Positions 11,258-63,469 of a stretch of DNA of 64,000 nt are shown in pieces. A program made the position numbers and the translations under genes. Origin of the DNA: Hypericum androsaemum (taxonomy: Eukaryota; Streptophyta; Magnoliopsida; Malpighiales; Hypericaceae); assembly GCA_963995505.1 (NCBI GenBank), contig OZ023187.1, positions 503,501 to 567,500 on the forward strand, in the 5' to 3' direction. Below the pieces are notes generated by a model. That model was not told the DNA's origin, searched no databases, and saw nothing but the letters and a program-made list of their open reading frames with translations. Each line of letters opens with the position of its first letter. The stretch's first letter is position 1.

Positions 11258-11737
11258 TCAGTTGTCCGGCTGGTTGGGGGACCTCGTAGCTCCGCTGTCC
11301 CTCTGATTGCCAGCGGCCGCGATGAGTGGGAGCCTGATAACCGGGGGGTTCCCGCCGGCGGCGGCGAGGACGAGCACGACGGGGCCGGCAGAGACGATAT
11401 ACCCGACGACAATGCCGCTGATGATCTGGCCACTGGTGTAGCCGAGGATGGCCGATAAGGACCCGGAGTATCCGCCGTTGGTGAGGGCGATAAAGCACCC
11501 GGAGAGGGACACGATTCTGTGGGCCCAGGTCAGCTCCGAATAGACCCCTCCGTGTTGGAGAATGACGTTGCCGACCATCCCGGAGGCGGAGAGCACTATA
11601 ACGACCGTGTGGGCCCCCCTTCTTGCGAATGAGATGATGAACTGGACGATGTCGAGCCCCTCGTGGACTTCCAAGAAATAGTGTCTCATGGCGGGCGGCG
11701 GGAGACGGTGGCGGGGGGCTTGTTCGTTGGAGGACAT
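11258..11737 (-). CDS. PPC-domain protein without AT-hook (array copy 1)
   Basis: An open frame of 159 residues from the first ATG after the TATA box. The PPC domain begins at residue 17 with MRHYFLEVHEG, continues through GAHTVVIVLSASGMVGNVIL, AHRIVSLSGCFI, TSGQIISGIVVGYIVSAGP and ends VIRLPL, followed by a polar tail. The order of strands matches AHL proteins, nuclear architecture factors that form trimers through this domain. There is no RGRP hook. The start codon itself (ATG in GAGGGGATGTCC) replaces the CTG found at this place in sister copies. The AHL signature GRFEIL is AHRIVSL here. Copy 1 and the copy at 49.2 kb form a subgroup by their TSGQ-I-G segment. Single exon, minus strand like all the others. 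GC-rich against an AT-rich spacer. Confidence 0.85.
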   Translation of the reverse strand: MSSNEQAPRHRLPPPAMRHYFLEVHEGLDIVQFIISFARRGAHTVVIVLSASGMVGNVILQHGGVYSELTWAHRIVSLSGCFIALTNGGYSGSLSAILGYTSGQIISGIVVGYIVSAGPVVLVLAAAGGNPPVIRLPLIAAAGNQRDSGATRSPNQPDN

Positions 11738-11900
11738 CCCCTCGGCTTGTTCTTGGAGGGCGGCCTCCACGTGGACGGTGATGCCTAAGTCGGAGGAGGA
11801 GTCGTCTTGGCTTCTACTCTTTTTCCTAATACGATATCTGCTTTTTTTTTTCCTTTTTCAAAAGGAGTTTTAAGAAACAGAATGAGTCACTTTTTGGCTC

Positions 11901-11907
11901 TTATATT
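11901..11907 (-). promoter_or_regulatory. TATA box, PPC copy 1
   Basis: Minus strand AATATAAGAGCC, about 165 bp before the ATG at 11737. The first ATG downstream is the one chosen as start. Confidence 0.6.
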
Positions 11908-11919
11908 GGGTCAACCTCA

Positions 11920-12378
11920 CATTCTTGGGGAATGATTTCTTTCGTTTGACCCGGTTTCGTACGAATTTTTTTGAAATACCATACGAGAATATTGAAATGA
12001 TTTGACGGTGGATATGTCTTTTGCCAAATTATATTTTAAAAATAAATTATGTGACCATATTTTTGTTAGTTTAATTCAACCAAGTATAATAAATTATTAT
12101 ATTTAATAAGTTAATTCAGATTTTTTATATAAACTTAATTTTTAAATTAACAGTTAATCTAACATAATTTACTGAATTGAATCTGCAATTAGTTGATTTT
12201 ACCATGTCGAATTTACTAAAATGAATTTGTTACCTTTTTTTAAATAACTATCTGCGCTAATCTGGCCAGTGTCATTAAGCGCCCCTATTGACTTGGGTTC
12301 TTAACTGTGGCCACCGACCATGTGGTTAATTAAGCAAACTGCCATCACAAAATATCGAGGGACCTCTTTTGGGCTAAT
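11920..12378. other. Array spacer upstream of copy 1
   Basis: AT-rich sequence with remnants of the common upstream module. No gene recognised. It ends at the miniature element at 12387. Confidence 0.45.
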
Positions 12379-12386
12379 TCAATTCG

Positions 12387-12679
12387 GGGTAGATTTGGTG
12401 GGGACTGGGGTAGTCCTTAACTATGGGGACTAACTCAAACCAATATCATTACACATGCAAACCAATATCACTTAACATGTAAACTAATATCACTTCATAT
12501 GTAAATCACCGTCTTCCAAACCAATATCACTTCACATGCAAACCAATAACACTTCACATGCAAACCAATAACACCTGATAGGTTATTGACCATCAGATTT
12601 AAAGATAATCAAATCTGACGGCCCAAAATGTAGTCCCCACCTATGGACAAATTTTCTTTAGTCCCCACTCAATCCGGTC
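12387..12679. mobile_element. Miniature inverted-repeat element with ACCAATATCAC minisatellite
   Basis: Flanks tcaattcg at 12379-12386 and 12680-12687 are identical 8-bp direct repeats. The ends GATTTGGTGGGGAC and GTCCCCACTCAATC are inverted. The interior holds about seven units of aaaccaatatcacttcacat, the inverted form of the minisatellite core at 7620 and 59640. It sits inside the array's 'gggctcattcaagaatgacac' spacer motif, which it splits. Confidence 0.7.
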
Positions 12680-12687
12680 TCAATTCG

Positions 12688-13205
12688 AGAATGCACTCTC
12701 GACCTCGGATAGAATAAATGGGCTATTTGTAATTGCGTCCTCTTTTTTTGTACATCAAAGTTGGCAATTAAGGCACTTAAATGAACTCTGCCAAAAAAAT
12801 ACATTTTTAAATGAAAAGTTATCATCCTTAAACAAAGTTAAAAGTTACCAAAAAATGTACCAATAAAAAACAGAAGAAGGGGATTAATTATTCGGCCATT
12901 ACTTGTCAATTTCCAGTCCCTAAATTCTTATTCTATTTCTAAACATTTTGGGGAGGCATATTACGAATTGGAACTCTCCGGAGCATACACGGACTTGTAA
13001 AGAGTTGCCAATGAATAGATAAGACTATAAAAGGAATATGCCACATTGTATCGAACTATTATGAAAATTGTATTGAACAAATCAACAAACTATCTTGAAA
13101 ATTGTATAGAACTAACCAACTATATTGAACAATTTCTTGAATCATCCCTAAAAATCTTCTTCTCCTACTCTATTGTATGGGCTTCTCTGTAACTGCCATC
13201 TTTCT
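12688..13205. other. 3' flank of PPC copy 2
   Basis: Common downstream module: 'cggagcatacacggacttgt', 'actataaaaggaatatgcca', then repeats of aactatcttgaa-attgtat, then the segment just before the stop of the next copy. Confidence 0.5.
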
Positions 13206-13703
13206 CTATTCTTGATATCTTGACCAATTTTCCCGCTGGGACCCGTTGGCCGCCGGAATAGGGAACATCACAGCGCTGCCATTCTCGGCGTCCCTCTGAT
13301 TCCCACGAAGGGGTTCTCGCAGACGGAGAGGACGACCACGACGGTGCCGGAAGCGAGGATCAACCCGGTGACCACGCCGCCAACGACAACGCCATCGTCG
13401 CCGACGAGGATGGCCGAGAAGGACGAGGATGGCCGAGAAGGACGAGGAGTAGCCGCCACCGGGGAGGGAAATAAAGTACCCGGGGAGGGACACGAGTCTG
13501 TAGGCGTCGGGAACCGGCACCAACGGCGGTCGAAAACCGGGGAGGTTGATATCACCGTGAAGGTCGTTTTGGAGAGTGACGCGATCGATCATCCCGGAGG
13601 CAGAGAGCACCGTGACGGACGTGTGGGCCCCGCTTCTGGCGAATCCGATGATGGTTTGGACGACGTCGTTGCCCTGGGTGATTTCTAACATAAAGTGTCT
13701 CAT
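13206..13703 (-). pseudogene. PPC copy 2, frameshifted in the middle
   Basis: Starts MRHFMLEITQGNDVVQ at the ATG at 13703 and reads well to YSSSFSAILV. A 19-bp tandem duplication (gaggatggccgagaaggac at 13406-13424 and 13425-13443) then shifts the frame. The correct continuation, VVVGGVVTGLILASGTVVVV, is in another frame. A second lesion near 13300-13315, which removes the usual FALPL segment, brings the original frame back for the tail GNQRDAENGS. The frame is therefore open for 165 codons but about 45 residues in the middle are out of register, so the fold should be lost. Confidence 0.8.
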
Positions 13704-13878
13704 GGCGGTGGACTTGGGCTTGTTTTTGGAGGGCAGGGGCTTCTTGGCCGTGGACGAGGTCGGTTGGGCGGCCTCCACGTGGTCGGTGGAGGAGTCTCTT
13801 GGCTTCTTCTTTTCCTAAGTCGTGCTTGTTTTAAGAAAGGGGAGAATTCATGAGTTGAAAACTCTAATAGGCTCCACT

Positions 13879-13886
13879 TGTATATT
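13879..13886 (-). promoter_or_regulatory. TATA-like box, PPC copy 2
   Basis: Minus strand AATATACA, weaker than the AATATAA(G/A)A form in other copies, about 175 bp before the ATG. Confidence 0.45.
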
Positions 13887-14110
13887 GGGTGGGTCCACCC
13901 CACCTCCAGGCCGAATCTTGAACACCCCGCTTTTTGTTTGCTTCTTGTTTTGTTTGCTTCGTGTAATTTGTTCCTATTTAGCTCATTTCTTATCTATTTA
14001 GTTCTATAACCATTTCCCTCAAAATAATATATTTAGCTCTATAATCATTTAAAGAGTATATTATCATTTACATTTGGAACTTTTCAGAAATCAGAAGATA
14101 TTTTTTGCGC

Positions 14111-14374
14111 TGACGGAAATGGAAATTGGAAATTAGAAATTGGAAAAAAGGGAGAAAACAGTTATTTGGAAGGAAGACCTAAAATAAGAGGGAAATGAAA
14201 TCTCTGTCGTAATTGTTTTCAATGAGTTAAATCAAATATTTCCTGTACATCCAGCTCATCTCTCCTTATATACTTGTAAAGAAACATGGACTAGCTAAGT
14301 CGAAGTGGGCCGAACATCTTCATTATTGGCAGGCCCATTTGACGTTTTCTTTGGAGTAGCAGTAGACGTGTCCA
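14111..14374 (-). repeat. Copia 3' LTR
   Basis: On the minus strand it runs TGGACACGTC...ATTTCCGTCA, with TG...CA ends, 264 bp. The purine tract GTGAGAGGGT lies immediately inside it. Confidence 0.8.
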
Positions 14375-14382
14375 ATACCCTC

Positions 14383-16158
14383 TCACAAGTTGGAGTATGA
14401 ATATCCTTCATACCCAACATGGCGATGCCCGGGGAGGGCCTTCGTGAATACATCAGCAAGCTGAAAGTCAGTGGGCACGTGAAATAACTTAATTAATCCT
14501 TGTTGAACCTTCTCACAAACATGGTGGCAATCAATCTCAATATGCTTCGTACGTTCATGAAAGACAGGGTTCTCGGCGATGTATATCGCAGAACGATTGT
14601 CACAATAGACCAAGGATAGGCCAACAGGCTGCATACGGAGATCAACCAGTAAGTAGTACAGCCACTGCAGCTCACTTGCCAAAGACGCTAAGGCACGATA
14701 CGCAGCTTCAGAACTAGATTTTGACATAGTAGGCTGCTTCTTGGAACGCCAAGAAATCAAAGAATCACCAAGGAAGACGTTATAACCAGTAATAGAACGA
14801 CGAGTCTCCGTGCAAGTGGCCCAATCACTATCACAATAGGCCTTAAATTGGAGAGGAGAGAAGCTAGAAAAGAACAAACCAGTGCCAGTACTATCTTTGA
14901 GATAACGAAGAACACGATGAGCCGCCTTCATATGGTTATGTGTAGGGCGAGAGCAAAATTGACTCAACTGTTGAACAGAAAAGCTGATATTGGGCCTGGT
15001 ATTGGTAAGATATAAGCGCTTGCCAACCAATTTTCTGTACGTGGAAGAAGTAATGGGAGCAGCAGGATCAAGGGAACAATCTGCATCATCCGAATCATCT
15101 AATGGCAAAGGAGAGTCATCAAGGAAAGGACTATCTGCAGTAGTCAAGCGACAAGAAGTGTCCATAGGTGTAGTCGCAGGCCTGCAACCAATATACCCAG
15201 TCTCCTTGAGAAGTTCTAATGTATACTTTTTCTGGCAAAGATGTAAACCAGTATCCTTTCGGGCGACTTCAAGACCGAAAAAGTACTTCAATGGACCCAA
15301 ATCTTTAAGTTTTAAGTGTTGGCTTAAAGCAGTACGAACGGCTGCAATAGCTTCAATAGATTCACCAGTGAGCACAATATCATCTACATAAACCCATAGA
15401 GCAAGAAAACAACCAGAAGAATGCTGCATAGTGAATAAAGAGTGATCACTGGAAGACTGAATAAAACCCATGTGTAGTAATAACGATGTCAGCTTGGCAA
15501 ACCATTGTCGGCTAGCTTGCTTCAAGCCATACAAAGATTTCTGTAGCAAACAAACCTTTCTGAAATCAGCAGCAGCGACAGATAACCCAGGTGGCAGAAC
15601 CATGTATACCTCCTCTACTAAATCACCATTAAGGAATGCGTTATTAACATCGAGCTGGTGCAAATACCAACCCTTGCTCACTGCTATAGCCAACAACAAT
15701 CTCACAGTGGTTAGTTTAGCAACAGGTGAAAAAGTATCCAAGAAATCAACACCGAAGGCTTGAGTATAGCCCTTGGCAATGAGACGAGCTTTATATCGCT
15801 CAGTAGACCCATCAGATTTTAGTTTAACCTTGTAAACCCACTTGCGTCTAATGGCAGCCTTCCTGGGAGGTAAATTAACAAGATCCCAAGTAGAATTAGC
15901 AGCGAGAGCATCAAGCTCCTGTGCCATGGCCTCTTTCCAGCAGTCCTCTTTCACAGCATCCTGATACCTAGTGGGCTCTACAACGAAAGCTAAAGACACA
16001 CTAAAAGCTCTATGAGAAGCACTACGATTTGCAAAAGAAATATGATTTGTGATTGGATAGAGACACTTAGAAACAGACGAGATAACAGATGCAGTCAAGA
16101 TAAGAGATATGCTAGACATAGGAGATGCAAGTGATTGGCCAAGCAAAGCTGAAACATA
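14383..16158 (-). pseudogene. Copia reverse transcriptase and RNase H
   Basis: Reads as one frame of about 590 codons. The RT region has RKWVYKVKLKSDGSTERYKA, KARLIAKGYTQ, LHQLDVNNAFLNGDL, LYGLKQASRQW and the catalytic WVYVDDIVLTG. The RNase H region has YCDSDWA, RRSITGYNVFLGDSLISWRS and SSSEAAYRALA. These are the standard copia motifs, with the YVDD box intact. This is the best preserved part of the element, but it is cut off from the upstream domains by a stop at 16162. The C-terminus ends just before the 3' LTR. Confidence 0.85.
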
Positions 16159-16161
16159 ATG

Positions 16162-17957
16162 TTATAAATGTAAAGGACGTCTCTTATTTCTTGTGGATTG
16201 TCGAACAAGATCAGAGGAAGCAGCTGAGGTATCATTAAATGTAGGAGTTAAAAGGCTAGGATGGCTAGGTGTAGAGGTAGCTGGTGAGGGAGAGATGGCT
16301 GGAGTAGGACTGGGAGCAAGATCATGGTCAGGATAATCAAAATCTGTGACTTCATGAAGAGGAGTAGGCAGGGGCAAACATGATTCATCCAAATCCAAGA
16401 CTTGAAAGTCTGTAGGCTGATACAAATGGCCCCTTTTAAAGGGAAAAATATCTTCATAAAATTGAACGTCTCTAGAATAGATGATCTGATGGCTGAGTAA
16501 ATCATATACTTTGTACCCTTTTACTCCAAAAGGGAATCCAAGAAAAATGCACTGAGCTGCCCGTGGATCAAACTTAGACCTGTTAGGAGTGAGGTTAGAT
16601 ATGTAGCAAAGACATCCAAAAATCTTGAGGTTGTTGAGGACAGGAGGTTTGTGATATAGTAGGTCATAAGGTGTGTAGTTTTGTAGGATGTGTGAGGGAG
16701 TTCTATTGATTAGGTAAGCAGCATGTATGATAGCATCACTCCAAAAGGTAGTAGGGAGATGAGCATGAAAAATCAGAGAACGAGCAACATTCAAGAGATG
16801 TTGATGCTTGCGTTCAACCCTCCCATTCTGCTGAGGTGTAGAGCACAGGAAACTTTATGAACAACACCTTTAGCAGCATACAATTCTGTCATCATGAACT
16901 CACGGCCACCATCAGATCGAATGATCTTTATCCGAACATCAAATTGAGTAATCACCATGTTATAGAAATGTTCAATGCATGGCCGAACCTCAGCTTTACT
17001 ACGCAAAAGATAAATCCACAAAACTCGAGAATGATCATCAAGAATAGTGAGAAAGTACTCATAACCATCATAAGAAGGCACACGATATTTGCCCCAAATG
17101 TCCATGTGAATTAGATCAAAATACGCTGTAGCTCGAGAAAAGCTAACAGGAAATGGAAGACGATGATATTTAGCCAAAGTGCAGGATTCACAATGTGCAG
17201 GAGCATCAACATTTATTCCAGGGTCTATGGTTCTAAAAATGTCTAGCTTATGGTTAGGAACATGACCAAGGCGACAATGCCAAAGGTCTTCAATCTTGGT
17301 TACAGAATTTATGGATACAGAGGGAATATGGGTAACAACTGCTTCATGATCCAACTTCAAAACAAAGAGACCAGCTTGTACATCAGCTTTGCCAATCACC
17401 TTCAAATGGATAGGGTTCTGAATATGACATGAATTCTTAACAAAAGAAACTACAAGAGACTCACTCTGAAGGAATTTACTAACTGAAATCAGATTGAACT
17501 GGAAGTCTGGAACATATAGAACATTACTAAGGAAAAGGCTACCTATTTTGACATCACCCACGTGAGAAACAGGCACTTGATGCCCATTTGGAAGACAAAT
17601 CAAGACATTAGACAAAGAAGACATACAAATAAAATGATGAAGAGAACAAGCCATATGATCAGTGGCACCAGAATCAACTATCCAACTATTCTTAGACACA
17701 GGATAAGTAGCCGAGGGAACAAAAAGATTGTAATTACCAGACATATGGAAGGAGTTGGAAGGAATTGGTGGTGATGGAGGCAACGAAACTGAGAAGTTAC
17801 CATTGCTGGAGATAGGAATACCAGGACTGCCAGAAGAAGAATGCTGAATCAAGCCCATAACATTGTGTTGCTGCTCTTGTGTAAGATTCAATTTTCTCAA
17901 CTCTTCAGAGATATTCAATGAGTGAGGCGAAGAAGGTTGTGAGGCATAAGAATACAC
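16162..17957 (-). pseudogene. Copia protease and integrase, frameshifted
   Basis: The protease site is SWIVDSGATDHM. It is followed by the GAG-pre-integrase segment LWHCRLGHVPNHKL and the integrase core HMDIWGKYRVPS, FLTILDDHSR, IIRSDGGREF. Near 16848 a single base is missing, so the frame leaves the expected [12 protein letters not shown] stretch, which is legible one frame over. The rest of the integrase ([20 protein letters not shown] onward) follows in the shifted frame and ends at a stop at 16162. Integrase Asp residues are retained. Confidence 0.85.
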
Positions 17958-18974
17958 CTAATTAATAGATGTAGAACCACCTGTAGAAGGCCGAGAACCT
18001 CCATAGTATCCTGCAGAAGGTCCAGAACCAGTCCATGAACTATAAGAAGGAGAATGTAGAGGCATGAATCTAGGGGTTCTCGGTCTATAACCTGGGGGAT
18101 AACCGTGTTTCTTGAAGCAACGATCCACTATATGTCCAACACCATGACAGAACGTGCATTGAGGCTTCTTGTTACCAGTATTCCATGGACGTTTTGGTCC
18201 TTGATAACCTTGAGCTGCCATGACAGGGACCTGAGTTGAAGCTCCCATGATAGGATGCATCATCTGCATCTCTTGTTCACCAGCCATCGACAACACACGA
18301 GATATCGAAGGCAGATGATCAAGCATCAAAATTTGAGACCTCATTCAATTATAACTCTCATTCAACCCACGCAAAAACCTCATAACCTAATCACCTTCTA
18401 AGTAAGACCTCATCGCAACAACAACCTCACATTTATCACCACAAATCCCTCCATTCACAATATTAATACACTTGCAACTAGGTATAACTCGTAACTGCAT
18501 CAATTGATCCCATAGAATCTGAAATTGCGTATAGTAATCATTCAAGCTTAGAGCACCTTGCCCGAGATTGTAGATTTGTTCCTGGAGAGATGCGATGCGC
18601 ATCGACTCGCCTCGCCCGAACCGTTCCTTCAGATTCTTCCACACATCAGCTGCAGACTCGTACCATAGAACGCTCTGTGATATAGCGGGCTCTACTGAGC
18701 GAGAAATCCAGCTAATCACCATCGTATTGCAACGATCCCAGCTAAAACACTTCGGATCATCAACAGGAGGCATAGTAATTGATCTGTCGATAAATTCGAG
18801 CTTGTTCTTCGAGCGAAGCACCAATTGAATAGATTGGCTCCATGAATGGTAATTAGTCCCGTTCAGGAGAGGCGTGACGAGGACAACCACCGGCGATTCA
18901 TTTGGCGCGAGGAAATAAGGATCCGCCTCATCCTGCATGTGCAAAGATGATACCGCCGCTGCATTTGTCGCCAT
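17958..18974 (-). pseudogene. Copia gag with zinc knuckle
   Basis: Start taken at the ATG at 18974 (MATNAAAVSSLHMQ). The gag core has LNGTNYHSWSQSIQLVLRSK and WKNLKERFGRG, and the C-terminal CTFCHGVGHIVDRC is a CCHC RNA-binding knuckle. In-frame stops at 18387 (TAG), 18345 (TGA) and 17958 (TAA) split it into pieces. Confidence 0.85.
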
Positions 18975-19060
18975 GGAAACTAGAAGCTTCACAAGCTCAA
19001 ATCTCCTTCACGAAGTAACAAAAATCTCAAGGATCGACTAGAACAACAAGCTTTGATCAC

Positions 19061-19079
19061 GCTTGTGGCTCTGATACCA
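19061..19079 (-). other. Primer binding site of the copia element
   Basis: Directly inside the 5' LTR the minus strand reads TGGTATCAGAGCCACAAGC, the usual copia site complementary to the 3' end of initiator tRNA-Met. Confidence 0.85.
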
Positions 19080-19334
19080 TGACGGAAATGAAAATTGAAA
19101 AAAAAAAAAAGGAGAAAACAGTTATTTGGAGGGAAGACCTAAAATAAGAGGGAAATAAAATCTCTTTTGTAATTGTTTTCAATGAGTTAAATGAAAAATC
19201 TCTTGTACATCCAGCTCATCTCTCCTTATATACTCGTAAAGATACATGGACTAGCTAAGTCGAAATGGGCCGAACATCTTCATTATTGGCAGGCCCATTT
19301 GACGTTTTCCTTGGAGTAGCAGTGGACGTGTCCA
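19080..19334 (-). repeat. Copia 5' LTR
   Basis: 255 bp, aligned to the 3' LTR over its full length. The main length difference is an A-rich tract at 19090-19112. Confidence 0.8.
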
Positions 19335-20384
19335 ATATACCCGTCTTCAATATATTTGGTTTTAGTCCAGTAGTATTTGTTAGCTAATCCGTTACATTAT
19401 TGGCTAGTCTTCGAATATAAACAACCTTACTTAATGGACTAGACAAAAGAAATTTTTTGGATCACCGGGATTTGCAATTCAATGTCCAGGCCGAAGTGTT
19501 GTTTAGAAAATCAATAGGAACTTGTAGCAGCATTTCATATTTTGGGCTCATTCAAGAATGACACTCTCGGCTTTGGATAGAATAAATGGGCTCCTCATTA
19601 CGTTGGGAATTGGGATGTGTTGTAATTGCCTCCTCCTTTTTTATTTACATCAAAGTTAACAAATTCTCCTATTCCTACCCAAAAACTGTATTCTTAAACG
19701 AAAAGTTACCATCCTGAAAAAAATTGAGAAATTACGAAAAAAATGTACCAATAGTAAACAAAAGAAATAATGAGTTGCTGGTAATAAGTAGTGTGAGGCA
19801 ATCGACCTTATCTTTTCTGGTGCAATAGGTTTGTGCTCTATTCTTTGATAAGATTTAATTTTGAGAGTCGTTGATCTTAAAGTCATTTCTATCAATAATT
19901 TTTACATTCGTGATACTTAAACTTAAATTTTTTTTAAGTGAATCTATCGGTTGTTGATGTTATTGGCTCCTTGACATAGGCCAAAACACAATGGCTTATG
20001 TCAATGGCACAATTGCTTACAAACTACCGTCACTTTTTTCATGATTCCACTTGCCATTGCTCAAGAAGAAAGTTGAGACCGCCATTAGCTCTCCTCTCCT
20101 CCCCTGCTCACTGAAGATCATACATGGAAAGATTATTCGGCTGTTAGTTGTCAATTATCAGTAATTTTGGCCCCCAAATTCTTGAATCAAGGACTATGAA
20201 GATGGATATGACTATGAAAGTAATATGCCATATTGTATTGAACAAACTATCTTGAACATTGTATAGAACTAACTATTTCTTGAATCTTATTCTTCTCCTA
20301 CTTTCTACGGGCTTCTCTATAACTGCCTTATTTCTTGACGATGACATCCAGCGCCAACCTTAACAAGAAGGCCTGATCAAAGAC
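19335..20384. other. Array spacer and 3' flank of PPC copy 3
   Basis: Begins with the other half of the upstream module split by the copia insertion (cccgtcttcaatatatttgg). It continues through 'gggctcattcaagaatgacac', 'agttgagaccgccattagct' and 'aatatgccatattgtattga' to the stop of copy 3. No gene seen. Confidence 0.5.
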
Positions 20385-20843
20385 TCAGTTGGGCGGGCGA
20401 GAGGGTGGACCTCGCCTGCCGCCATTGTCAGGGAGCAACATGACTTGCTGGGAGCCGTTGTCCCTCTGATTCTGAGCGTCCCTCCGATTTCCAGCGGCAG
20501 CGTTATCCGCGACGGAGAGAAGGACCACGACGGTGCTGTGAGCGACGAGCGACGTGGCCAAGCCCCCCACGAGATAGCCATTGAAGGAGGCGATGCTTGC
20601 CGAGAAGCACCAGGAGTAGCCGCCACAGGGGAGGGAGAAAAAGTACCCGGAGAGGGACAAGAGCCTGTAGGCCCCGGGCAGCATCCTTACCGACGATTGG
20701 TCGTCCTCGATGAAAAAGACGTTTTGGACCATCCCGGAGGCGGAGAGTAACGTGACGGCCGTGTGGGCCCCGTTTCTGGCGAACGCGATGATGGCCCGGT
20801 CGATGCTGGTGCCCCGGGGGACATCCAAGAAAAATAGTGTCAT
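20385..20843 (-). CDS. PPC-domain protein without AT-hook (array copy 3)
   Basis: 152 residues from the ATG at 20843. Domain start MTLFFLDVPRGTSIDRAI, then NGAHTAVTLLSASGMVQNVF, AYRLLSLSGYFFSLP, YLVGGLATSLVAHSTVVVLL. The usual CENPSVF-LPL segment is shortened (SVADNAAAGNRRD), so the last strand of the domain may be missing. Upstream, in the same frame but with no ATG and after a TAG stop, the 5' leader reads KKPRGCPPRTSTS; in the next frame it reads GLPSKNKHKPS. These are two halves of an AHL AT-hook. Translation from the PPC ATG gives a hook-less protein. Function unknown; by family it could associate with other PPC proteins. Confidence 0.8.
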   Translation of the reverse strand: MTLFFLDVPRGTSIDRAIIAFARNGAHTAVTLLSASGMVQNVFFIEDDQSSVRMLPGAYRLLSLSGYFFSLPCGGYSWCFSASIASFNGYLVGGLATSLVAHSTVVVLLSVADNAAAGNRRDAQNQRDNGSQQVMLLPDNGGRRGPPSRPPN

Positions 20844-20857
20844 GGCGGGTGGCGGAG

Positions 20858-20897
20858 GGCTTGTGCTTGTTCTTGGAGGGCAGCCCCTTGGCTTCTT
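20858..20897 (-). other. AT-hook relic in the 5' leader of copy 3
   Basis: KKPRGC is in frame with the PPC ATG, while GLPSKNKHKP lies one frame over. The AHL consensus is a PRGRP core followed by SKNKPKP. The second core Arg is Cys (TGC), and a frame break separates the two halves. Confidence 0.6.
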
Positions 20898-24344: not shown

Positions 24345-24771
24345 TCACATACCGCCATTTTCCTGCTGGCCCGCCGGCATAGGATTGCCGTTCTTCCACG
24401 AGGGGGACCGTGAAAACCGATGGGTTCTCGCAGACGAAGAGGACGACCGAGACGGGCTGGAAACGACGATCGGCCCGGTGACCACGCCGCCGACGACACC
24501 GCCATCTTCGCCGATGAGGATGGCCGAGAAGGACGAGGCGAGGCCTCCGCCATTGGGGAGGGAGGCAACGTACCCGGGGAGGGACACGAGTCTGGGCCGT
24601 GGGGAGCGGGACGACCGGGGATTGGGCCCCGCCGTTTTGGAGAATGACGGGATCGACCATTCCGGAGGCGGAGAGCATCGTGACGGCCGCGTGGGCCCCA
24701 CTTGTGGCGAATGCGATGATGGAATGGACGACGTCGGTGCCCTGTTGGACTTCCAAGGTAAAGTATGTCAT
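24345..24771 (-). pseudogene. PPC copy 4, three frame breaks
   Basis: Near-twin of the intact copy at 42405-42869. From the ATG at 24771 it reads MTYFTLEVQQGTDVVHSI to VVPLPTA. A 2-bp deletion near 24593 then shifts the frame (correct continuation LVSLPGYVASLPNGGG in the next frame). A 1-bp deletion near 24456 restores it for PVSVVLFVCENPSVFTVPL. A larger deletion of about 35 bp near 24392 shifts it again, leaving NPMPAGQQENGGM in the other frame. The middle of the domain is therefore scrambled. The first two lesions together lose exactly three bases. Confidence 0.85.
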
Positions 24772-25985: not shown

Positions 25986-26462
25986 TCAGTAGGGCGGGCC
26001 ATGATTTTCATGCATGGAGCCGTTGGCCGCCGGCATTGGACTGCCATTCTCGGCGACCCCATGATCGCCAGCGGCCGCGTAATCCGAGAGGAGGGGGAGC
26101 GTGAAAACCGATGGATTCTCGCTTACGCAGAGGACGACCGTAACGGGGCCGGAAGCGACGATCGACCTGACCACGCCGCCGACGGCGTAGCCACTGTCGT
26201 AGGCGGTGACGGCCGAGAAGCACCAGTAGTAGCCGTCCTCGGGGACGGAGACATAGTATCCATAGAGGGACAAGAGTCTTTTGTCAACGGGCAGCGACAC
26301 GTACGGCGGCGATTGGCCCAAGCGGTTTTGGAAAATGACGTTGTTGACCATCCCGGAGGCGAAGAGCGCCGTGACGGCCGAGTGGGCCCCGCTCCTGGCG
26401 AATGCGATGATGGCCCGGACGAGGTCGGTACCCTCGGGGGCTTCCAAGATAAATTGTATCAT
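25986..26462 (-). CDS. PPC-domain protein without AT-hook (array copy 5)
   Basis: 158 residues from the ATG at 26462: MIQFILEAPEGTDLVRAI, SGAHSAVTALFASGMVNNVI, KRLLSLYGYYVSVPEDG, YAVGGVVRSIVASGPVTVVL, SENPSVFTLPL, then a Gly/Asn/Pro tail. All strands of the PPC domain are present. The 5' leader still spells KKPRGCPPPPSPA in the same frame right up to the ATG, but a TAG stop lies 23 codons upstream of KKPR... region's start codon region and no ATG precedes it. Hence an AHL-type protein that begins at the domain. The part of the leader carrying the GTGGAGGCC segment is deleted in this copy. Confidence 0.85.
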   Translation of the reverse strand: MIQFILEAPEGTDLVRAIIAFARSGAHSAVTALFASGMVNNVIFQNRLGQSPPYVSLPVDKRLLSLYGYYVSVPEDGYYWCFSAVTAYDSGYAVGGVVRSIVASGPVTVVLCVSENPSVFTLPLLSDYAAAGDHGVAENGSPMPAANGSMHENHGPPY

Positions 26463-37518: not shown

Positions 37519-38300
37519 TGGTGGTGGCGGAGGGCAGCCCTCGGCTTCTTGGAGGTGGCCTGGGACGGGGTCTCTTGGGCGGCCTCCACGTGGACGGTGA
37601 TGCCTAAGTCGGAGGAGTCTTTTCTTCTTTTTCTTCTGTTTTTCCTAATGCTTGATTTTTCAAAATGGAGTTTTAACTTTTAACGAAAAGAGGAATTTAT
37701 GAGTTGAATACTTAAGTAGGGTCAGTATTATATTGGGTGGATCCACCTCACCTCTGAGCAGATTCGTGGAATTTCTTTGGGAATAATTTCTATGCTTGAG
37801 CACCCCGCTCGTTGTTTACTTCTTGTAATTTGTTTCTATTTAGCTCCTTCATTTTCTTATAGTTCTGTAATCAGCTAAAGAGTGTATTATCATTCACATT
37901 TGTACTTTTTGGAAATTAGAATATCTTTTTGCGGCCGTCAAGAAACTATTTAAATTATATGAATCATATGATTTTTTTAATCACAAATTAAACTAACTAA
38001 CCTTAATTTAAATTAAATAATGAATTTTTTTAACAAATTTTCAAAGTAGTCCTCTCACTAGTCACTACCCAGTGGTCATGTGTTTTATGAAGTGTCATTA
38101 GGAAAGTTATTGACTTTCGGAGATAAACATAAATAATAATTAGTATCATCTAATTATAATCTGAATTAGTAAAAATATTATTATTTAAATATTAGGTGGT
38201 CTAAGTAAAAAATAGTCCTTAAAATCATACAAAAGAAGTTGATTGAATTCATGAGGAGGACTATAAACATACCTGCATGTCATTTTTACAATCGTGCCGG
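37519..38300. repeat. Direct repeat A, right copy: PPC leader and promoter without the gene
   Basis: Starts inside the 5' leader of a PPC unit (AAGAAGCCGAGGGCTGCCC on the minus strand, the AT-hook relic) and continues through the TATA box (37728-37734) and the upstream module. The PPC coding part is absent; the break is at about 37519. It keeps the 'gcctccacgtggacggtgat' leader piece that the 26-kb copy has lost. Confidence 0.75.
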
Positions 38301-42404: not shown

Positions 42405-42869
42405 TCACATACCGCCATTTTCCTGCTGGCCCGCCGGCATAGGATTGCCGTTCTCGGCGTCCCCCTGATTGCCAGCGGCCGCGTTTTCTTCCACGAGGGG
42501 GACCGTGAAAACCGAGGGGTTCTCGCAGATGAATAGGACGACCGAGACGGGGCCGGAAGCGACGATCGGCCCGGTGACCTTGCCGCCGACGACACCGCCA
42601 TTGTCGTCGACGAGGATGGCCGAGAAGGACGATGAGAGGCCGCCGCCATTGGGGAGGGAGGCAACGTACCCGGGGAGGGACACGAGTCTGTGGGCCGTAG
42701 GGAGCGGCACAACAGGCGATTGGGCCCCGCCGTTTTGGAGAATGACGGGATCGACCATCCCGGAGGCGGAGAGCACTGTGACGGCCGCGTGGGCCCCACT
42801 TGTGGCGAATGCAATGATGGCATGGACGACGTCGGTGCCCTGGGGGACTTCCAAGGTAAAGTATGTCAT
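42405..42869 (-). CDS. PPC-domain protein without AT-hook (array copy 6)
   Basis: 154 residues from the ATG at 42869, intact and the best reference copy: MTYFTLEVPQGTDVVHAI, TSGAHAAVTVLSASGMVDPV, AHRLVSLPGYVASLPNGGG, SSSFSAILVDDNGGVVGGKV, TGPIVASGPVSVVLFI, CENPSVFTVPL, then an Asn/Gln/Gly tail ending NPMPAGQQENGGM. This is the full order of PPC strands, as in AHL nuclear proteins where the domain builds trimers and recruits transcription factors. The position of the AHL GRFEIL motif is AHRLVSL. The leader is short (118 bp from the TATA box) and no hook relic remains. It is the partner of the broken copy at 24.3 kb. Confidence 0.88.
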   Translation of the reverse strand: MTYFTLEVPQGTDVVHAIIAFATSGAHAAVTVLSASGMVDPVILQNGGAQSPVVPLPTAHRLVSLPGYVASLPNGGGLSSSFSAILVDDNGGVVGGKVTGPIVASGPVSVVLFICENPSVFTVPLVEENAAAGNQGDAENGNPMPAGQQENGGM

Positions 42870-47367: not shown

Positions 47368-47829
47368 TCACATACCGCCATTTTCCTGCTGGGAGTCATT
47401 GCCCGACGGCGTAGGACTGCCATCCTCGGCGTCCCCCTGGTTGCCCGCGGCAGCGTTATCCGGGAGGAGGGGGAGCCTGAAATACGAGGAGTACTCGCAG
47501 ACGGAGAGGACGACCACGACGGTGCCGTAAGCGACGATCGACCAGACCTCGCCGCCGGCGACATAACCACGGGTGTAGGCGGTGCTGGCCGAGAAGAACC
47601 AGGAGTAGTCGCCATCGGGAAGGGAGGTAACGTACCCGGAGAAGGACACGAGTCTGTGGGGCCCGGACACTGACGATACCAGCCCTCGGTCCCTTTGGAA
47701 GATGACGTTGTGGACCATCCCAGAGGCGGAGAGTACCGTGACGTTGGTGTGGACCTCGTTTCTGGCGAATGCGATGATGGACAGGACGAGGTCGGTGCCC
47801 TGGGGGGCTTCCAAGAAAAATTGTGTCAT
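47368..47829 (-). CDS. PPC-domain protein without AT-hook (array copy 7)
   Basis: 153 residues from the ATG at 47829: MTQFFLEAPQGTDLVLSI, NEVHTNVTVLSASGMVHNVI, PHRLVSFSGYVTSLPDG, GYVAGGEVWSIVAYGTVVVV, LSVCEYSSYFRLPLLPDNAA. The frame stays open for 63 more codons upstream, but that stretch runs through the TATA box and so is not translated from its first ATG. The first ATG after the TATA box is the one chosen. The domain is complete. The segment FARNEVHT replaces FARSGAHT of the other copies. Confidence 0.85.
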   Translation of the reverse strand: MTQFFLEAPQGTDLVLSIIAFARNEVHTNVTVLSASGMVHNVIFQRDRGLVSSVSGPHRLVSFSGYVTSLPDGDYSWFFSASTAYTRGYVAGGEVWSIVAYGTVVVVLSVCEYSSYFRLPLLPDNAAAGNQGDAEDGSPTPSGNDSQQENGGM

Positions 47830-49185: not shown

Positions 49186-49599
49186 CTACCACCATTGTCC
49201 GGGGGAGGCCGGGAGGAGGGGGGGCCTGATTTCCGTGCCGTTGTCGCAGGCGGCGAGGACGATCGTGATCAAGCCGACAGCGACGAGCGGCCCGATGACC
49301 GCGCCGGCGATGACCTGGCCACTGGTGAAAGTTAGGATGGCCTCGAAGGACCCGTAGCCGCCGTTGGTGACGGTGATAAAGTACCCGGAGAGGGATACGA
49401 GTCTGTGGGTCATGGGCAGCGCCACGAACCGCACATACGCCCCGCCGTTTTGGAGAACGACGTTGCCGACAGTCCCGGAGGCGGAGAGCACCGTGACTGA
49501 CATGTGGGCCCCCCTTATGGCGAATGTGGTGATGGACCGGATGACGTCGGAGCCCCCGGGGACTTCCAGGATAAACTGTCTCATGGCGGATGAGGTCAT
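49186..49599 (-). CDS. PPC-domain protein without AT-hook (array copy 8)
   Basis: 137 residues from the ATG at 49599 (MTSSAMRQFILEVPGG); an alternative start five codons later would give the usual domain start. Then GSDVIRSITTFAIRGAHMSV, TVLSASGTVGNVVLQNGGAY, THRLVSLSGYFITVTNGG, SFEAILTFTSGQVIAGAVIG, PLVAVGLITIVLAACDNG. It belongs with copy 1 by the TSGQ-I-G segment and by lacking the CENPSVF motif (ACDNGTEIRPPL instead). The C-terminal tail is short. In the leader, in frame but without ATG, one reads QRLPSKERNQAQ, a diverged hook relic. Confidence 0.83.
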   Translation of the reverse strand: MTSSAMRQFILEVPGGSDVIRSITTFAIRGAHMSVTVLSASGTVGNVVLQNGGAYVRFVALPMTHRLVSLSGYFITVTNGGYGSFEAILTFTSGQVIAGAVIGPLVAVGLITIVLAACDNGTEIRPPLLPASPGQWW

Positions 49600-51312: not shown

Positions 51313-51756
51313 TCACCTACCGTCATTTTCCTGCTGGCCCGCCGGCATAGGATTGCCATTCTCGGCGTCCCCCTGATTGGCAGCGGCCGCGTTATCCGAT
51401 ACGAGGGGGAGCGCGAAAACTGAGGGGTTCTCGCAGACGGAGAGGACGATCACGACGTCGCCGTAAGCGACGATCGACCTGACCACCCCGCCGACGACAG
51501 AGCCATTGTTGTAGGCGATAACTGCCGAGAAGGATGAGGAGTAGCCGCCTCTGGGGAGGGAGACAAAGTACCCGGAGAGGGACACGAGTCTGTGAGTCCC
51601 GGAAGGCATCGTTATCGGCGGTTGGTCCTGGAAAATGACGTTGTCGACCAACCCGGAGGCGGAGAGTGTCGTGACGGCCGGGTGGTCTCTGGCATATGCG
51701 ATGATGGCCCGGTAGATGTCGGTGCCATGGGGGGCTTCCAAGAAAACTCGTGTCAT
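51313..51756 (-). CDS. PPC-domain protein without AT-hook (array copy 9)
   Basis: 147 residues from the ATG at 51756: MTRVFLEAPHGTDIYRAI, YARDHPAVTTLSASGLVDNV, THRLVSLSGYFVSLPRGG, SSSFSAVIAYNNGSVVGGVV, RSIVAYGDVVIVLSV, CENPSVFALPLVSDNAAA. Compared with the sister copies it lacks about three residues at the FARSGAHTAV turn. The leader has lost the hook region altogether: TACGCAGACG follows the PPC ATG closely and then the GTGGAGGCAGCC leader piece. No other abnormality. Confidence 0.85.
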   Translation of the reverse strand: MTRVFLEAPHGTDIYRAIIAYARDHPAVTTLSASGLVDNVIFQDQPPITMPSGTHRLVSLSGYFVSLPRGGYSSSFSAVIAYNNGSVVGGVVRSIVAYGDVVIVLSVCENPSVFALPLVSDNAAAANQGDAENGNPMPAGQQENDGR

Positions 51757-53079: not shown

Positions 53080-53532
53080 TCACATACCGCCATTTTCCTC
53101 TTGGGCCGCCGGCATAGGATTAACATTCTCGGCGTCCCCCTGGTTGCCAGCGGCCGCAACGAGAGGGAGCGCGGAAACTGAGGGGTTCTCGCAGACGGAG
53201 AGGACGACCACGACGGGGCCGTAAGCGACGATCGAACTGACCACGCCGCCGACGACAAAGCCTTGTTCGCGGGCGATGCTGGCCGAGAAGGACCAGGAGT
53301 GGCGGCCACCGGGGAGGGAGATAAAGTAGCCGGAGAGGGACACAAGTCTGTGGGCCCCGGGCAGCGACACCAACGGCGGCGGTTGGTCCCCGACGTTTTG
53401 GAAAACGACGTTGTGGACCATCCCGGAGGCGCAGAGTACCGTGACGGCAGTGTGGGCCCCGATTCTGGCGAAGGCGATGATGGCCCGGTCGATTTCGGTG
53501 CCCTCGGGGGCTTCCAAGAAGAATTGTGTCAT
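53080..53532 (-). CDS. PPC-domain protein without AT-hook (array copy 10)
   Basis: 150 residues from the ATG at 53532: MTQFFLEAPEGTEIDRAI, IGAHTAVTVLCASGMVHNVV, AHRLVSLSGYFISLPGG, GFVVGGVVSSIVAYGPVVVV, LSVCENPSVSALPL, GNQGDAENVNPMPAAQEENG. This copy has the longest leader and keeps the most complete hook relic (53543-53599), out of frame and closed by a TAA immediately before the ATG. Intact domain, so it is a candidate for expression. Confidence 0.87.
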   Translation of the reverse strand: MTQFFLEAPEGTEIDRAIIAFARIGAHTAVTVLCASGMVHNVVFQNVGDQPPPLVSLPGAHRLVSLSGYFISLPGGRHSWSFSASIAREQGFVVGGVVSSIVAYGPVVVVLSVCENPSVSALPLVAAAGNQGDAENVNPMPAAQEENGGM

Positions 53533-53542
53533 GGCGGGGTTA

Positions 53543-53599
53543 TGTGACTGTGGCTGGGGGCTTGGGCTTGTTCTTGGAGGGCAGCCCCCGGGGCTTCTT
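53543..53599 (-). other. Best preserved AT-hook relic (leader of copy 10)
   Basis: The minus strand reads KKPRGLPSKNKPKPPATVT followed by TAA. This is the AHL type-I hook layout (basic run, PRGRP core, GSKNKPKPP, VT) except that the second core Arg is Leu (CTG) and one residue is missing before SKNK. The frame differs from that of the PPC ATG at 53532. No ATG opens it. Confidence 0.75.
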
Positions 53600-53780
53600 G
53601 GCGGTGAGCTCCCTGGGAGGGAGGACGGTGTCGGTTAGGCAGCCTCCACGTGGACGTTGATGCCTAAGTCGGAGGAGGAGTCTTCGATTCTTCTTCTTTT
53701 TTTTTTCCTAATGCTTGTTTTCTAAGAAGGAGATTCAAGAAACAGTGCGATTATGAGTTGAAATCTATAGTATGCTCACT

Positions 53781-53788
53781 TTTATATT
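53781..53788 (-). promoter_or_regulatory. TATA box, PPC copy 10
   Basis: Minus strand AATATAAAAGTGAGC, about 249 bp before the ATG, the longest spacing in the array. The usual GGTGGACC stretch upstream is lost. Confidence 0.6.
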
Positions 53789-54640: not shown

Positions 54641-54659
54641 TCCAAAAAAAATGATGATA

Positions 54660-54915
54660 AAGTTGTGTGTATTAATTTGGTGACTCATCGTTGTGCACAT
54701 CCAATGTCGTGCACGTGATGTGCCAGGATCGTATATACATGATATGTCAGTGCTATGTATATTATGTGCTAGTGTCGTGCACATGATGTTCTAATATCAT
54801 ATATACATTATATGTCAGTGTCGTGTATATGATATGTTTGTGTCAGTCCTTTTCAATAGTGTGCCGGTGTCTTGTGCATGGTGTGCCAGTGTCTATGTGC
54901 CAACATCGTTTGTGT
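54660..54915. repeat. Imperfect minisatellite (gtgtcgtg-a-atgatgtgcca)
   Basis: About nine degenerate units of 22-30 bp built on gtgtcgtgcacatgatgt. No coding sense. Confidence 0.6.
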
Positions 54916-54919
54916 GCTG

Positions 54920-56229: not shown

Positions 56230-56662
56230 GGCGGGGACCTCACCTCACAACGCTGCCATTCTCGGCGTCCCCCGGACACCGACGCGTTATGCGCCAGCGG
56301 CCGCGTTATCCGGGAGCGTGAAAAACGAGGGGTTCTCGCAGGCGGAGAGGACGACCACGACGGGGCCGTAAGCGACGATCGAACTGACCAGGCCACCGGC
56401 GACAAAGCCTTGTTCGCGGGCGATGCTGGCCGAGAAGGAAGAGGAGTGGCCGCCACTTGGGAGGGAGCTAACGTATCCGGAGAGGGACACGAGTCTGTGG
56501 GGCCCGGACACCGACGATACCAGCCCTTTGGAAAATGACGTTGTGGACCATCCCGGAGGCGGAGAGTACCGTGACGGACGTGTGGGCCCCGTTTCTGGCG
56601 AATGCAATGATGGACTGGACGACGTCGGTGCCCTGGGGGGCTTCCAAGAAAATCTGTGTCAT
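56230..56662 (-). pseudogene. PPC copy 11, frameshifted by an 8-bp deletion
   Basis: From the ATG at 56662: MTQIFLEAPQGTDVVQSI, NGAHTSVTVLSASGMVHNVI to FQR. Compared with copy 7, eight bases are missing at about 56523-56526, where copy 7 has ccctcggtccct and this copy only ccct. The domain then continues one frame over: GLVSSVSGPHRLVSLSGYVS, GFVAGGLVSSIVAYGPVVVV, ACENPSFFTLPDNAAA. The encoded protein would stop after about 64 residues. Confidence 0.85.
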
Positions 56663-56783
56663 GGCGGGTGGCGGGGCTTGTTCTTGGAGGCTTCTTGGCT
56701 GGGACGTGGACGGTGTTTTTCCTAAGTCGGGTTGTTTCTGAAAGAGAGGAATTATTATGAGTTGAAAACTCAACCAGGCTCAC

Positions 56784-56792
56784 TTTTATAAA
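56784..56792 (-). promoter_or_regulatory. TATA box, PPC copy 11
   Basis: Minus strand TTTATAAAAGTGAGCC, same variant as copy 7, about 122 bp before the former ATG. Confidence 0.55.
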
Positions 56793-56829
56793 GGCTGGGT
56801 CCACCTCATCTCTAGCTCCGTTCATTGTC

Positions 56830-60799: not shown

Positions 60800-61221
60800 A
60801 TCTTTTCGTTGGGCAGTTTGTAATTGCCTCATCTTTTTACATCGAAGTTGAAAATTAAGGCACTTAAATGAACTCTCCTATTCCAACCAAGAAATGCATT
60901 CTTAAACGAAACATCATCAACAAATTGAAAAGTTACCAAAAAATCTACCAATAAAAGACAAAAGAATAAATGAGAAGGGGATTTGTAGCCATTAGCTCTC
61001 CGTAGTTAACAATCATGGACTTGAAAGATTTGCCAATAAACGAATAGGACTATAAACGGAATATGCCACATTGTAATGAACTATCTTTAACATTTCTTGA
61101 ATCTAATTCTTCTTCTCCTACCTACCTTTTATTGTATGGGCTTCTCTGTAACTGCCTTATTTCTCCATTCTTGATATCGACATCCCACGCCAACATTAAT
61201 AAGAAGGCCTGGATCAAAGAC
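60800..61221. other. 3' flank of PPC copy 12
   Basis: Downstream module with 'aacggaatatgccacattgt' (about 61055) leading into the stop of copy 12. Confidence 0.5.
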
Positions 61222-61665
61222 TCAGTAGGGCGGGCCGCCATTTTCCTGCTGGGCCGCCGGCATAGGATTGCCATTCTCGGCGTCCCCCTGATTGCCGGCG
61301 ACGAGAGGGGGCAAGAAAACTGAGGGGTTCTCGCAGACGGAAAGGACGACCACGACGGTGTCGTAAGCGGTTATCGTCCTGACCACGCCGCCGACGAGGG
61401 AGCCGTTGTTGTAGGCGATAATTGCCAAGAAGGTTTGGGAGTAACCGCCACTGGGGAGGGGGACAAAGTACCCGGAGAGGGACACGATTCTGTGGGCCCC
61501 GGACATCGTTGTTATCGGCGGTTGGTCCTCGCCGTTTTGGAAAGTGACGTCGTGGACCATCCCGGAGGCGGAGAGTGCCGTGACTGCCGTGTGGGCCCCG
61601 CTTATGCCGAATGCGAATCCGTTGGTGTAATCGACGACGTCGACTCCCTGGGGAGATTTAAGAAA
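61222..61665 (-). pseudogene. PPC copy 12, 5' end and start codon lost
   Basis: The open frame starts without ATG: FLKSPQGVDVVDYTNGFAFG, then ISGAHTAVTALSASGMVHDV, AHRIVSLSGYFVPLPSGG, GSLVGGVVRTITAYDTVVVV, CENPSVFLPPL, tail NPMPAAQQENGG. The first ATG is the Met of SASGM, which would remove a third of the domain. The residues between DVV and GAHT differ from all other copies. The TATA position reads TTTTATTTT. The leader is fused directly to the first strand, so a deletion of leader, hook region and start explains the structure. Confidence 0.75.
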
Positions 61666-61799
61666 CAGAGGGATTATTATGAGTTAGGTGATGAAAGCTC
61701 AAGTTGGCTCACTCGAACCGATTCTTGGGATTTCTTTGGATTAATGTCAAGTAAGCTCACTTTTATTTTGGGTCGCAAAATACGACTAGTGAGTCCTCA

Positions 61800-63094
61800 T
61801 CCTCTGCTTGGACACTCAAGTAGGTTCATATCGGGACTTTCTCGAGTTGGTAAATTAATTTAGATTCGAGTGATCTTTTAATTCTGTAAGTTGAACCCCA
61901 AATTCTTAATATATAAGAAATATTCTCCCAAGGAGAACACTCGCCAAAAGAGAGGAGCCAATTAAATTGAAGGAATTCTTAAAAAATAACAAGGAAAGAA
62001 ATCAGGGAAGGATTTTAAAGTATTAATTACTCTGATTAGGGGTCTTACATTAGTTTTTAGTGCAATCTGATCCAAAAAATTTAGAAATTCGACCCGGAAT
62101 TCATGCATGCATCTTATGCATCTGCACATTTATTTTACCCATAAAACACAAAAGATAATGGGTCGATGGTAACAAGTACTGTGAGTCAAAAAGACTTATC
62201 TGTTCTGGTGCAATAGAGATTATCGACTCAAATAATGTCGGTCCTATTTTGGTTCTCTAAGAACTTATATGTTCTGATGCAATTGTTTATGCGGTAGAAC
62301 TTATTTGATTCGTGCATTGTTAACTCTATTCAGTAATGGATCTCTCAATAATATTTTTTTTAGTTTTTGAGACTTAAACCAGTGTGATCGGTAAAGGTTG
62401 ATGTTATTTGCACAATAGCACGGTCCAAAACACAGCGGATTATGTCATTAGCTCTCCTCCCCTGCTCACTGAAGATGGACAGTTGAAGATCGAGCTACAA
62501 AATATCTTGGAATAACGGATGGGACTAAAAAGGAATATGCCACATTGCATGGAACTATATTGAACATTTTACCGATTACTTAGAATCAAATTCTCCTCTC
62601 ATTCTTCTTCTTCTTCTTCGAACTGACTTTCTTCTCTTCTTTCTCGTTCTTAACAAGAACACCTCATGAAACCCTTAGACTAATCGGAACTCTCCGGAGC
62701 ATACATGGACGGACTTGTAAAGATTTGTCAATGAAAGAATAGGACTATAAAAGGAATATGCCACATTGTATTGAACTAACTAACTATCTTCAACATGAAA
62801 GAATAGGACTATAAAAGGAATATGCCACATTGCATTGAACTAACTAACTATCTTGAGCATTGTATAGAAACTAACTAACTAACTATCTTGAACAATTTCT
62901 TGAATATAATTCTTCTTCTCCTACCTTGTAGTGTAGTCTACGGCGTAACTGCCTTGTTTCTCTATTATTGCCAAGAACGCTTAACAAGAACGCTTGATCA
63001 AAGACTCATCAGGGCGGGGGCCTCACCTCACATACTCCGTTGGCCGCCGGCAGCGAGAACATCACAGCGCTGCCATTCTCGGCGTCCCCCCTGG
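61800..63094. other. Array spacer with three downstream motifs
   Basis: Copies of 'atatgccacattg' at about 62535, 62757 and 62820, the last two in a 63-bp tandem repeat. A gene-less module 'catgaaacccttagactaat' lies at about 62665. Confidence 0.5.
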
Positions 63095-63469
63095 TTATCC
63101 GGGAGGAGGGGGGAGCGTGAAAACGGAGGGGTTCTCGCAGACGGAGAGGAAGATCACGACGGGGTTGTAAGCGATGATGTGCCTGACCAAGCCGCCTTCG
63201 ACAATGCCATTGAGGGAGGAGGTGCTGGCCGAGAAGGACCAGGAGTAGCCGCCTCTGGGAAGGGAGGTAACGTACCCGGAGAAGGAAATGAGTCTGTGGG
63301 GCCCGATCACTGGCGCTAACGGCCCTCCGTCCCTTTGGAAGATGACGTTGTGGACCATCCCGGAGGCGGAGAGTACCGTGACGGACGTGTGGACCCCGTT
63401 TCGGGCGAATTCGATGATGGCGCGGTCGATCTCGGTGCCCCGGGGAGCTTCCAAGTAATAATGTGTCAT
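63095..63469 (-). CDS. PPC-domain protein without AT-hook (array copy 13), short tail
   Basis: 124 residues from the ATG at 63469: MTHYYLEAPRGTEIDRAI, NGVHTSVTVLSASGMVHNVI, PHRLISFSGYVTSLPRGG, GIVEGGLVRHIIAYNPVVIF, LSVCENPSVFTLPPPPG. The domain is complete, but one extra G in the run at 63106-63112 shifts the frame, so the usual NQGDAENG tail is replaced by an early stop. The tail is variable in the family, so the protein may still fold. This is the last copy before the window's edge. Confidence 0.82.
   Translation of the reverse strand: MTHYYLEAPRGTEIDRAIIEFARNGVHTSVTVLSASGMVHNVIFQRDGGPLAPVIGPHRLISFSGYVTSLPRGGYSWSFSASTSSLNGIVEGGLVRHIIAYNPVVIFLSVCENPSVFTLPPPPG

Follow-up and report, generated by a model that had tools for sequence, protein, structure and literature searches.

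A tandem array of thirteen hook-less, PPC-only gene copies of probable AHL origin in Hypericum androsaemum

Introduction

Plant AHL proteins, which published abstracts link to growth, ageing and embryogenesis, are defined by one or two AT-hooks with an Arg-Gly-Arg core located ahead of a PPC domain (PMC4209074, PMC12958825). In the Type-I AT-hook this core is followed by a Gly-Ser-Lys-Asn-Lys tail, an intron-less coding region is the rule for the Clade-A (Type-I) members, and the motif GRFEIL of the PPC domain is described as the site of interaction with partners (PMC4209074). Here we analyse a stretch of 64,000 nucleotides from Hypericum androsaemum (contig OZ023187.1, positions 503,501 to 567,500), hereafter the window, whose internal positions serve as coordinates throughout. 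Between 11.3 and 63.5 kb it contains a tandem array of thirteen PPC copies. That these copies are PPC-only and hook-less, and that they come from an AHL gene, is in our view very likely, and we propose that their short proteins may be natural brakes on AHL complexes.

MicroProtein-like inhibitors are single-domain, dominant-negative proteins that bind and inactivate members of their parent family. In Arabidopsis, over-expression of an isolated PPC domain, of AHL29 or soybean origin, is reported to lengthen the hypocotyl, and the soybean domain to bind AHL29 in yeast (PMC4209074). An AHL15 variant without GRFEIL is described as dominant negative (PMC9540020).

A first-pass annotation of the window, made by a model, took plant PPC proteins to be AHL factors that bear one or two AT-hooks and are usually dispersed, single-copy genes. 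Both statements are too strong. Six AHL genes without RGRP are reported in Brassica napus (PMC8458767), an RGRP-less family is found in grasses (see below), and four hook-less AHL genes, termed pseudogenes, are listed in cotton (PMC6977275). As for dispersal, AHL cluster 2 of pepper is reported to hold 12 genes (PMC12249567), and AHL13f-i of B. napus stand in tandem (PMC8458767). Hook-less AHLs and AHL clusters are thus both known; a literature search through titles and the starts of abstracts found no report of the combination, a tandem array of hook-less PPC genes.

Results

Using ten of the copies as tblastn queries, we found exactly 13 PPC domains in the window, all on the minus strand, at 11207-63638. 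A nucleotide profile of the domain (E 1e-3) returned the same 13 and none further (14 rows, one copy being split in two), in agreement with the number and strand first annotated. The count of nine copies open from an ATG at the first domain strand also held: each runs from this Met to a single terminal stop and encodes 124-158 amino acids (aa). These are c01 (11258..11689, 143 aa, with an extra in-frame ATG at -48), c03 (20385..20843, 152 aa), c05 (25986..26462, 158 aa), c06 (42405..42869, 154 aa), c07 (47368..47829, 153 aa), c08 (49186..49584, 132 aa, with an extra in-frame ATG at -15), c09 (51313..51756, 147 aa), c10 (53080..53532, 150 aa) and c13 (63095..63469, 124 aa, with a short tail). 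The other four are broken. A 19-nucleotide (nt) insertion shifts the frame of c02 (13307..13703), two deletions of 2 and 1 nt that of c04 (24412..24771), the nearest relative of c06, and c11 (56320..56662) is shifted in the loop after the strand that ends with residue 45 of c10. The last one, c12 (61315..61675), has no start Met and keeps the remaining domain in frame; leader sequence seems to have taken the place of its first codons.

The copies are spaced 1.7-16.4 kb from start to start, a range slightly wider than the 2-16 kb first given. The repeat unit exceeds the PPC domain, since the copies also share a leader, which includes a TATA box, and a tail of about 220 nt. A fourteenth unit, detected by nucleotide profile, consists of a leader with no PPC domain (37528..37720, minus strand); about 790 bp at this place are a 92% match to the 5' flank of c05, and the match stops near the start codon. 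The domains differ from each other by 24% of bases on average, c04 and c06 being closer, which rules out an assembly error that multiplied a single gene.

We then looked at the identity of the domain. All nine open copies matched the Pfam PCC profile PF03479 above its curated cut-off of 25 bits (35.6-46.4 bits), so that the DUF296 assignment proposed at first stands; pieces of c02 and c11 also exceeded the cut-off, and c04 (21.0 bits) and c12 (22.1 bits) fell below it. The landmarks said to be present in every copy are less uniform: SGM occurs in 11 of 13 (SGT in c08, SGL in c09) and HR(L/I)(V/L/I)S in 9 of 13, the more relaxed xR(L/I)(V/L/I)S being found in all 13. The structure predicted for the c10 monomer from a 64-sequence alignment has the PPC fold, with a mean predicted local distance difference test (pLDDT) of 85.7. 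Its best structural match is PDB 2dt4, annotated as a PPC protein, and its identity to the first eight matches is 11-20%. The seven chains ranked after 2dt4 we take to be PPC proteins as well, 2hx0, 2p6y and 3htn being presumably among the PPC structures. VIA-align of the same model placed PPC and acetolactate decarboxylase chains above many weak rows, which were left unused. A single-sequence protein search gave no match.

The AT-hook is absent from the array. No Arg-Gly-Arg was found in any of the 13 domain segments or, read in three frames, in any of the 13 leaders, and the copies thus lack the hook ahead of the PPC domain by which the AHL family is defined. What remains is a relic. The c10 leader contains the decayed Type-I hook KKPRGLPSKNKPKPP (53555..53599, minus strand), out of frame with the domain and devoid of a start codon, which sits untranslated between the TATA box TATAAAAG (53779..53786, minus strand, at -254) and the start. 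In the c02 leader a second relic, KKPLPSKNKPK (13713..13745, minus strand), is in frame with the domain and has no in-frame start codon. Altogether, Ser-Lys-Asn-Lys is kept, again without a start codon, in leader frames of five of the 13 copies (c01, c02, c03, c10 and c11). The tail of the Type-I hook persists in the c10 and c02 leaders and its core is gone; for this reason the ancestor was most likely, to judge from sequence, a hook-bearing, intron-less Clade-A AHL. In another frame, the leaders of c01, c02 and c08 read RPRGGRP beside the true relic, a hook-like string that is probably due to chance in GC-rich DNA.

The position of the start is consistent with translation of the domain alone. 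A TATA-like box lies 122-254 nt upstream of the domain ATG in all 12 copies keeping that ATG, and in 8 of these it is the first ATG past the box; c02 and c06 each contain an upstream ATG from which the domain is not read. An in-frame stop is found upstream in all 13 copies; in c07, whose leader has no ATG, this stop precedes the TATA box. No in-frame start in the leaders would allow an unspliced transcript to add a hook, as expected for the PPC-only proteins of AHL ancestry first proposed. No spliced upstream exon carrying a hook came to light, though RNA would be needed to exclude one. The Met itself is not necessarily new, because the same column holds Met in 55 of 109 relatives of at least 150 aa (Leu in 47). 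At the place of Leu-Arg-Ser-His, the opening residues of the PPC domain in Clade-A (Type-I) AHLs, the array begins with Met-Arg (3 of 12), Met-Thr (8 of 12) or Met-Ile (1 of 12).

The GRFEIL motif is also lost. The aligned stretch of the array reads GAHRLV or similar, and the column of the Glu residue contains Arg in 13 of 13 copies, this being Arg62 in c10. Among the 109 relatives this column contains Glu in 87, Asp in 7, Asn in 3, Arg in 1, and other residues or a gap in 11. At the other positions, Phe is changed into His, Tyr or Lys (a gap in one copy) and Arg into Ala, Pro, Thr or Asp. The invariant Arg is encoded by one of the most conserved codons of the array (posterior 0.96 for a ratio of nonsynonymous to synonymous rates, dN/dS, below 1). 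No report of a change to Arg at this Glu was found among the titles and abstract starts searched.

To place the array, we built a tree from the 13 copies and 45 plant AHL-type proteins selected from 111 profile-search matches. The array forms one group with a support of 100 on the branch to all other proteins, and within it c01 and c08 branch outside the remaining eleven copies (support 95). It is 25-36% identical to the AHL-type proteins. Two profile searches, in which about 8000 candidates sharing most words were scored, gave no relative more than 43% identical to the first query sequence. The domain is contiguous in the nine open copies, as in the intron-less Clade-A genes. Among the 111 matches, the first 28 listed (P0001-P0028) have no RGRP; three were query sequences and all those with an organism name are from grasses. 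We thus noticed an RGRP-less AHL-like family across grasses (rice, wheat, Setaria, Panicum, Phragmites and others) with a decayed Type-I hook and mostly GTMEIL in the place of GRFEIL; at least two of its members, P0011 and P0019, retain RGR ahead of the domain.

We next asked of the sequences how far the reading frame is maintained. When the frame was traced across the shifts in c02, c04 and c11, no in-frame stop was found in the 13 domains; neutral simulations gave on average 19-22 stops, and none of 2000 runs at either of two rates reached zero. Indels were counted once for each distinct gap, down to c10 codon 116. Within the domain 13 of 17 are multiples of three, compared with 32 of 100 in the flanks (Fisher p 0.0007); the other four belong to c02, c04 and c11, and in the ten unshifted copies each of the 11 indels is a multiple of three. 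The absence of stops and these triplet indels indicate that the array is not a mere set of pseudogenes.

Codon models were then applied by maximum likelihood (ML), IQ-TREE codon models being used for the tree topology. A simple count had suggested strong positive selection (median dN/dS 1.47; at least 1 in 70 of 78 pairs), and this was dropped when ML with a correction for base composition gave a domain-wide value of 1.07 in the MG style, or 0.71 in the GY style, whose fit is 180 log units worse. As simple counts misled and fourfold sites proved slow, we relied on site models, null simulations and flank calibration. The sites are heterogeneous (M0 compared with M3, twice the log-likelihood difference, 2dl, 88). 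Under M2a, 24% of codons evolve at 0.17, 48% at 1.0 and 28% at 2.3, with a 2dl of 23.8 over M1a, and M8 exceeds M7 by 29.0; the maximum in 80 simulations under M1a, a null that does not include slow synonymous sites, was 5.0. The fast-class signal was retained with the nine open copies (p 1e-5), when the indel loop was removed (3e-4), when these two restrictions were combined (7e-4), and for the two halves of the domain analysed on separate trees (first half p 0.022, second half p 0.0013). Calibrated against leader plus tail, 17% of codons are fast (2dl 19.1), and against the tail alone 22% (2dl 28.4), the fast class running at about 2.2-2.4 times the flank rate; the excess over the flanks was significant in two of three calibrations. 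Sixteen sites reach a posterior of at least 0.8. When mapped on the predicted c10 structure, 9 of these fall in loops and the remaining 7 in the helix and strands; loops account for 31 of the 115 residues (p 0.007 for the excess). On this evidence, purifying selection is firm for part of the domain, and diversifying selection on the rest is likely, not certain. Three features go beyond the first-pass annotation: the leader's relic of the hook, the Arg that has replaced the Glu of GRFEIL in every copy, and the mixture of conserved codons and fast loops.

The third positions being slowest, other coding frames were considered and set aside. By eye, the +1 frame is interrupted by stop codons in several copies. 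The antisense frame in the same register stays open along parts of several, which is what third positions rich in C would produce in any case.

The window also contains mobile elements. Between c02 and c03, several open reading frames (ORFs) at 14111-19337 make up a Ty1/copia element (gag, integrase, RVT_2) whose flanking repeats, 91% identical, have the appearance of long terminal repeats. Fragments resembling a long interspersed nuclear element, with an endonuclease domain and an RRM-type ORF, are found at 5125-7235 on the minus strand. A plasmid search with the copia ORF returned no more than four distant records. A copia-like reverse transcriptase (34% identical) is encoded on NZ_CP115454.1 and NZ_CP115302.1, plasmid records of 4.6 and 5.2 kb from rhizosphere actinomycetes; these sequences might have come from a plant or another eukaryote and been deposited as plasmids.

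Discussion

The explanation that we favour, with a probability of roughly 0.5 as a whole, is that the array goes back to a single intron-less AHL gene of Clade A (Type I), whose AT-hook start was lost and which was amplified in tandem, and that selection maintained the copies as poison or tuning subunits. The array proteins would be made, enter the nucleus and join PPC trimers with ordinary AHLs, to which they would bring neither a DNA contact nor a working partner-binding motif. Each could thereby poison or tune the trimer, and the diversity of the loops would determine which partner each copy meets. For this last part, the action of hook-less, partner-dead subunits within AHL trimers, our confidence is lower, somewhat below an even chance. 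The inhibitor idea has experimental precedent by analogy, in the long hypocotyls caused by PPC alone and in the binding of soybean PPC to AHL29, and the array proteins would naturally unite the hook loss and the GRFEIL loss of the two dominant-negative precedents.

Several points weigh against this scheme. Co-assembly is doubtful at 25-36% identity, and the change of Glu to Arg could exclude AHLs rather than admit them. A mean dN/dS near 1 (1.07) is also expected from neutral decay. Synonymous sites are slow, at 0.57 of the flank rate (0.158 at fourfold sites compared with 0.25-0.31 in the flanks), so that dN/dS alone overstates positive selection, and the M1a null simulations leave this slowness out of account. 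It is due in part to the third-position C, which seldom changes: fourfold sites with consensus C are changed in only 6.8% (C to G 0.7%), compared with 13-21% for flank C. In the first half of the domain the fast class takes in many codons at a modest rate (63% at 1.58), and the calibration on the leader alone is marginal (10% of codons, 2dl 5.9, p 0.052). Finally, the closest pair, c04 and c06, has a dN/dS of 0.46, so that fast evolution does not show on every branch.

If the array proteins enter AHL trimers, they would act as poison subunits; should Glu-to-Arg prevent mixing, they would constitute a new family of PPC homotrimers. This second outcome, in which the array has left the AHL network and forms its own trimers, with a new surface, new partners and the fixed Arg as a new interface, is possible and on balance doubtful. 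It would fit the Arg that is invariant in 13 of 13 copies and highly conserved as a codon (posterior 0.96), the replacement of other GRFEIL residues and the low identity to AHL-type proteins (25-36%); a full switch alone, however, leaves the continued loop change among copies unexplained. In another explanation the copies are a conflict family, serving as decoys for, or sensors of, a pathogen or selfish factor whose target is the AHL PPC, with the loops engaged in an arms race. The tandem birth and death (nine open, three shifted, one without a start, one leader-only) and the fast loops (9 of the 16 sites of high posterior, loops being 31 of 115 residues; p 0.007) agree with this idea. We nevertheless hold it to be improbable: by the leader-only yardstick, relaxed constraint on the loops accounts for part of the pattern, and positive sites reported for other AHL types of B. 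napus are also in coils (PMC8458767). A combined version, where an AHL factor became a rapidly diversifying hook-less family and Glu-to-Arg makes its members poison or decoy subunits of a conflict or tuning system directed against AHL trimers, we regard as rather unlikely.

Two further explanations were weighed. The array might be a graveyard, one hook-less AHL copy amplified with its flanks, all copies of which are decaying, as four broken copies of 13, a mean dN/dS near 1, dN at least equal to dS in 70 of 78 pairs by simple count, and the hook-less AHLs of cotton termed pseudogenes (PMC6977275) would have it. The absence of stops where 19-22 were expected (never zero in 2000 simulations at either rate), the 11 of 11 triplet indels in unshifted copies and the strong conservation of about a quarter of the codons make this very improbable. 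It would be more surprising still if a hidden upstream exon supplied the AT-hook by splicing and the genes were ordinary AHLs, because the TATA-like box stands 122-254 nt before the start in all 12 copies with the domain ATG and the hook's own relic lies unread in the leader.

If our favoured explanation, that of hook-less tuning subunits, is true, evolution has built in this amplified PPC-only family blockers like the PPC fragments made in the laboratory (PMC4209074), and the array offers a set of natural variants with which to find the parts of the PPC trimer that select partners. Surveys can miss such genes; that of Brachypodium, for example, is described as having required both hook and PPC (PMC12958825).

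Among known systems, the array shares with Clade-A (Type-I) AHLs the PPC fold, the PF03479 match, the absence of an intron across the domain and, as a relic, the Type-I hook. Unlike them, it has no AT-hook, has replaced GRFEIL and counts thirteen copies in 52 kb, and its mean dN/dS is about 1, compared with the 0.29 reported for Type-I AHLs of B. napus (PMC8458767). Pepper cluster 2 and B. napus AHL13f-i show the same local duplication, in genes that are reported as AHLs. The grass proteins (Setaria SEVIR_5G001100v4, rice P0020, wheat P0015) resemble the array in having a Type-A PPC without RGRP and the remnant of a hook segment before the domain; in contrast to it, they keep the N-terminal segment and, in most, the Glu of GTMEIL, and the eleven included in our tree group together, apart from the array, in a clade with 100% support. 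Prokaryotic PPC proteins such as PDB 2dt4 are PPC-only and have the same fold, but they are only 11-20% identical and not AHL-derived. Finally, SOB3-PPC and soybean Gm06g01650.1-PPC are hook-less PPC proteins as in the array; they differ in being laboratory constructs, derived from canonical AHLs and over-expressed in Arabidopsis (PMC4209074).

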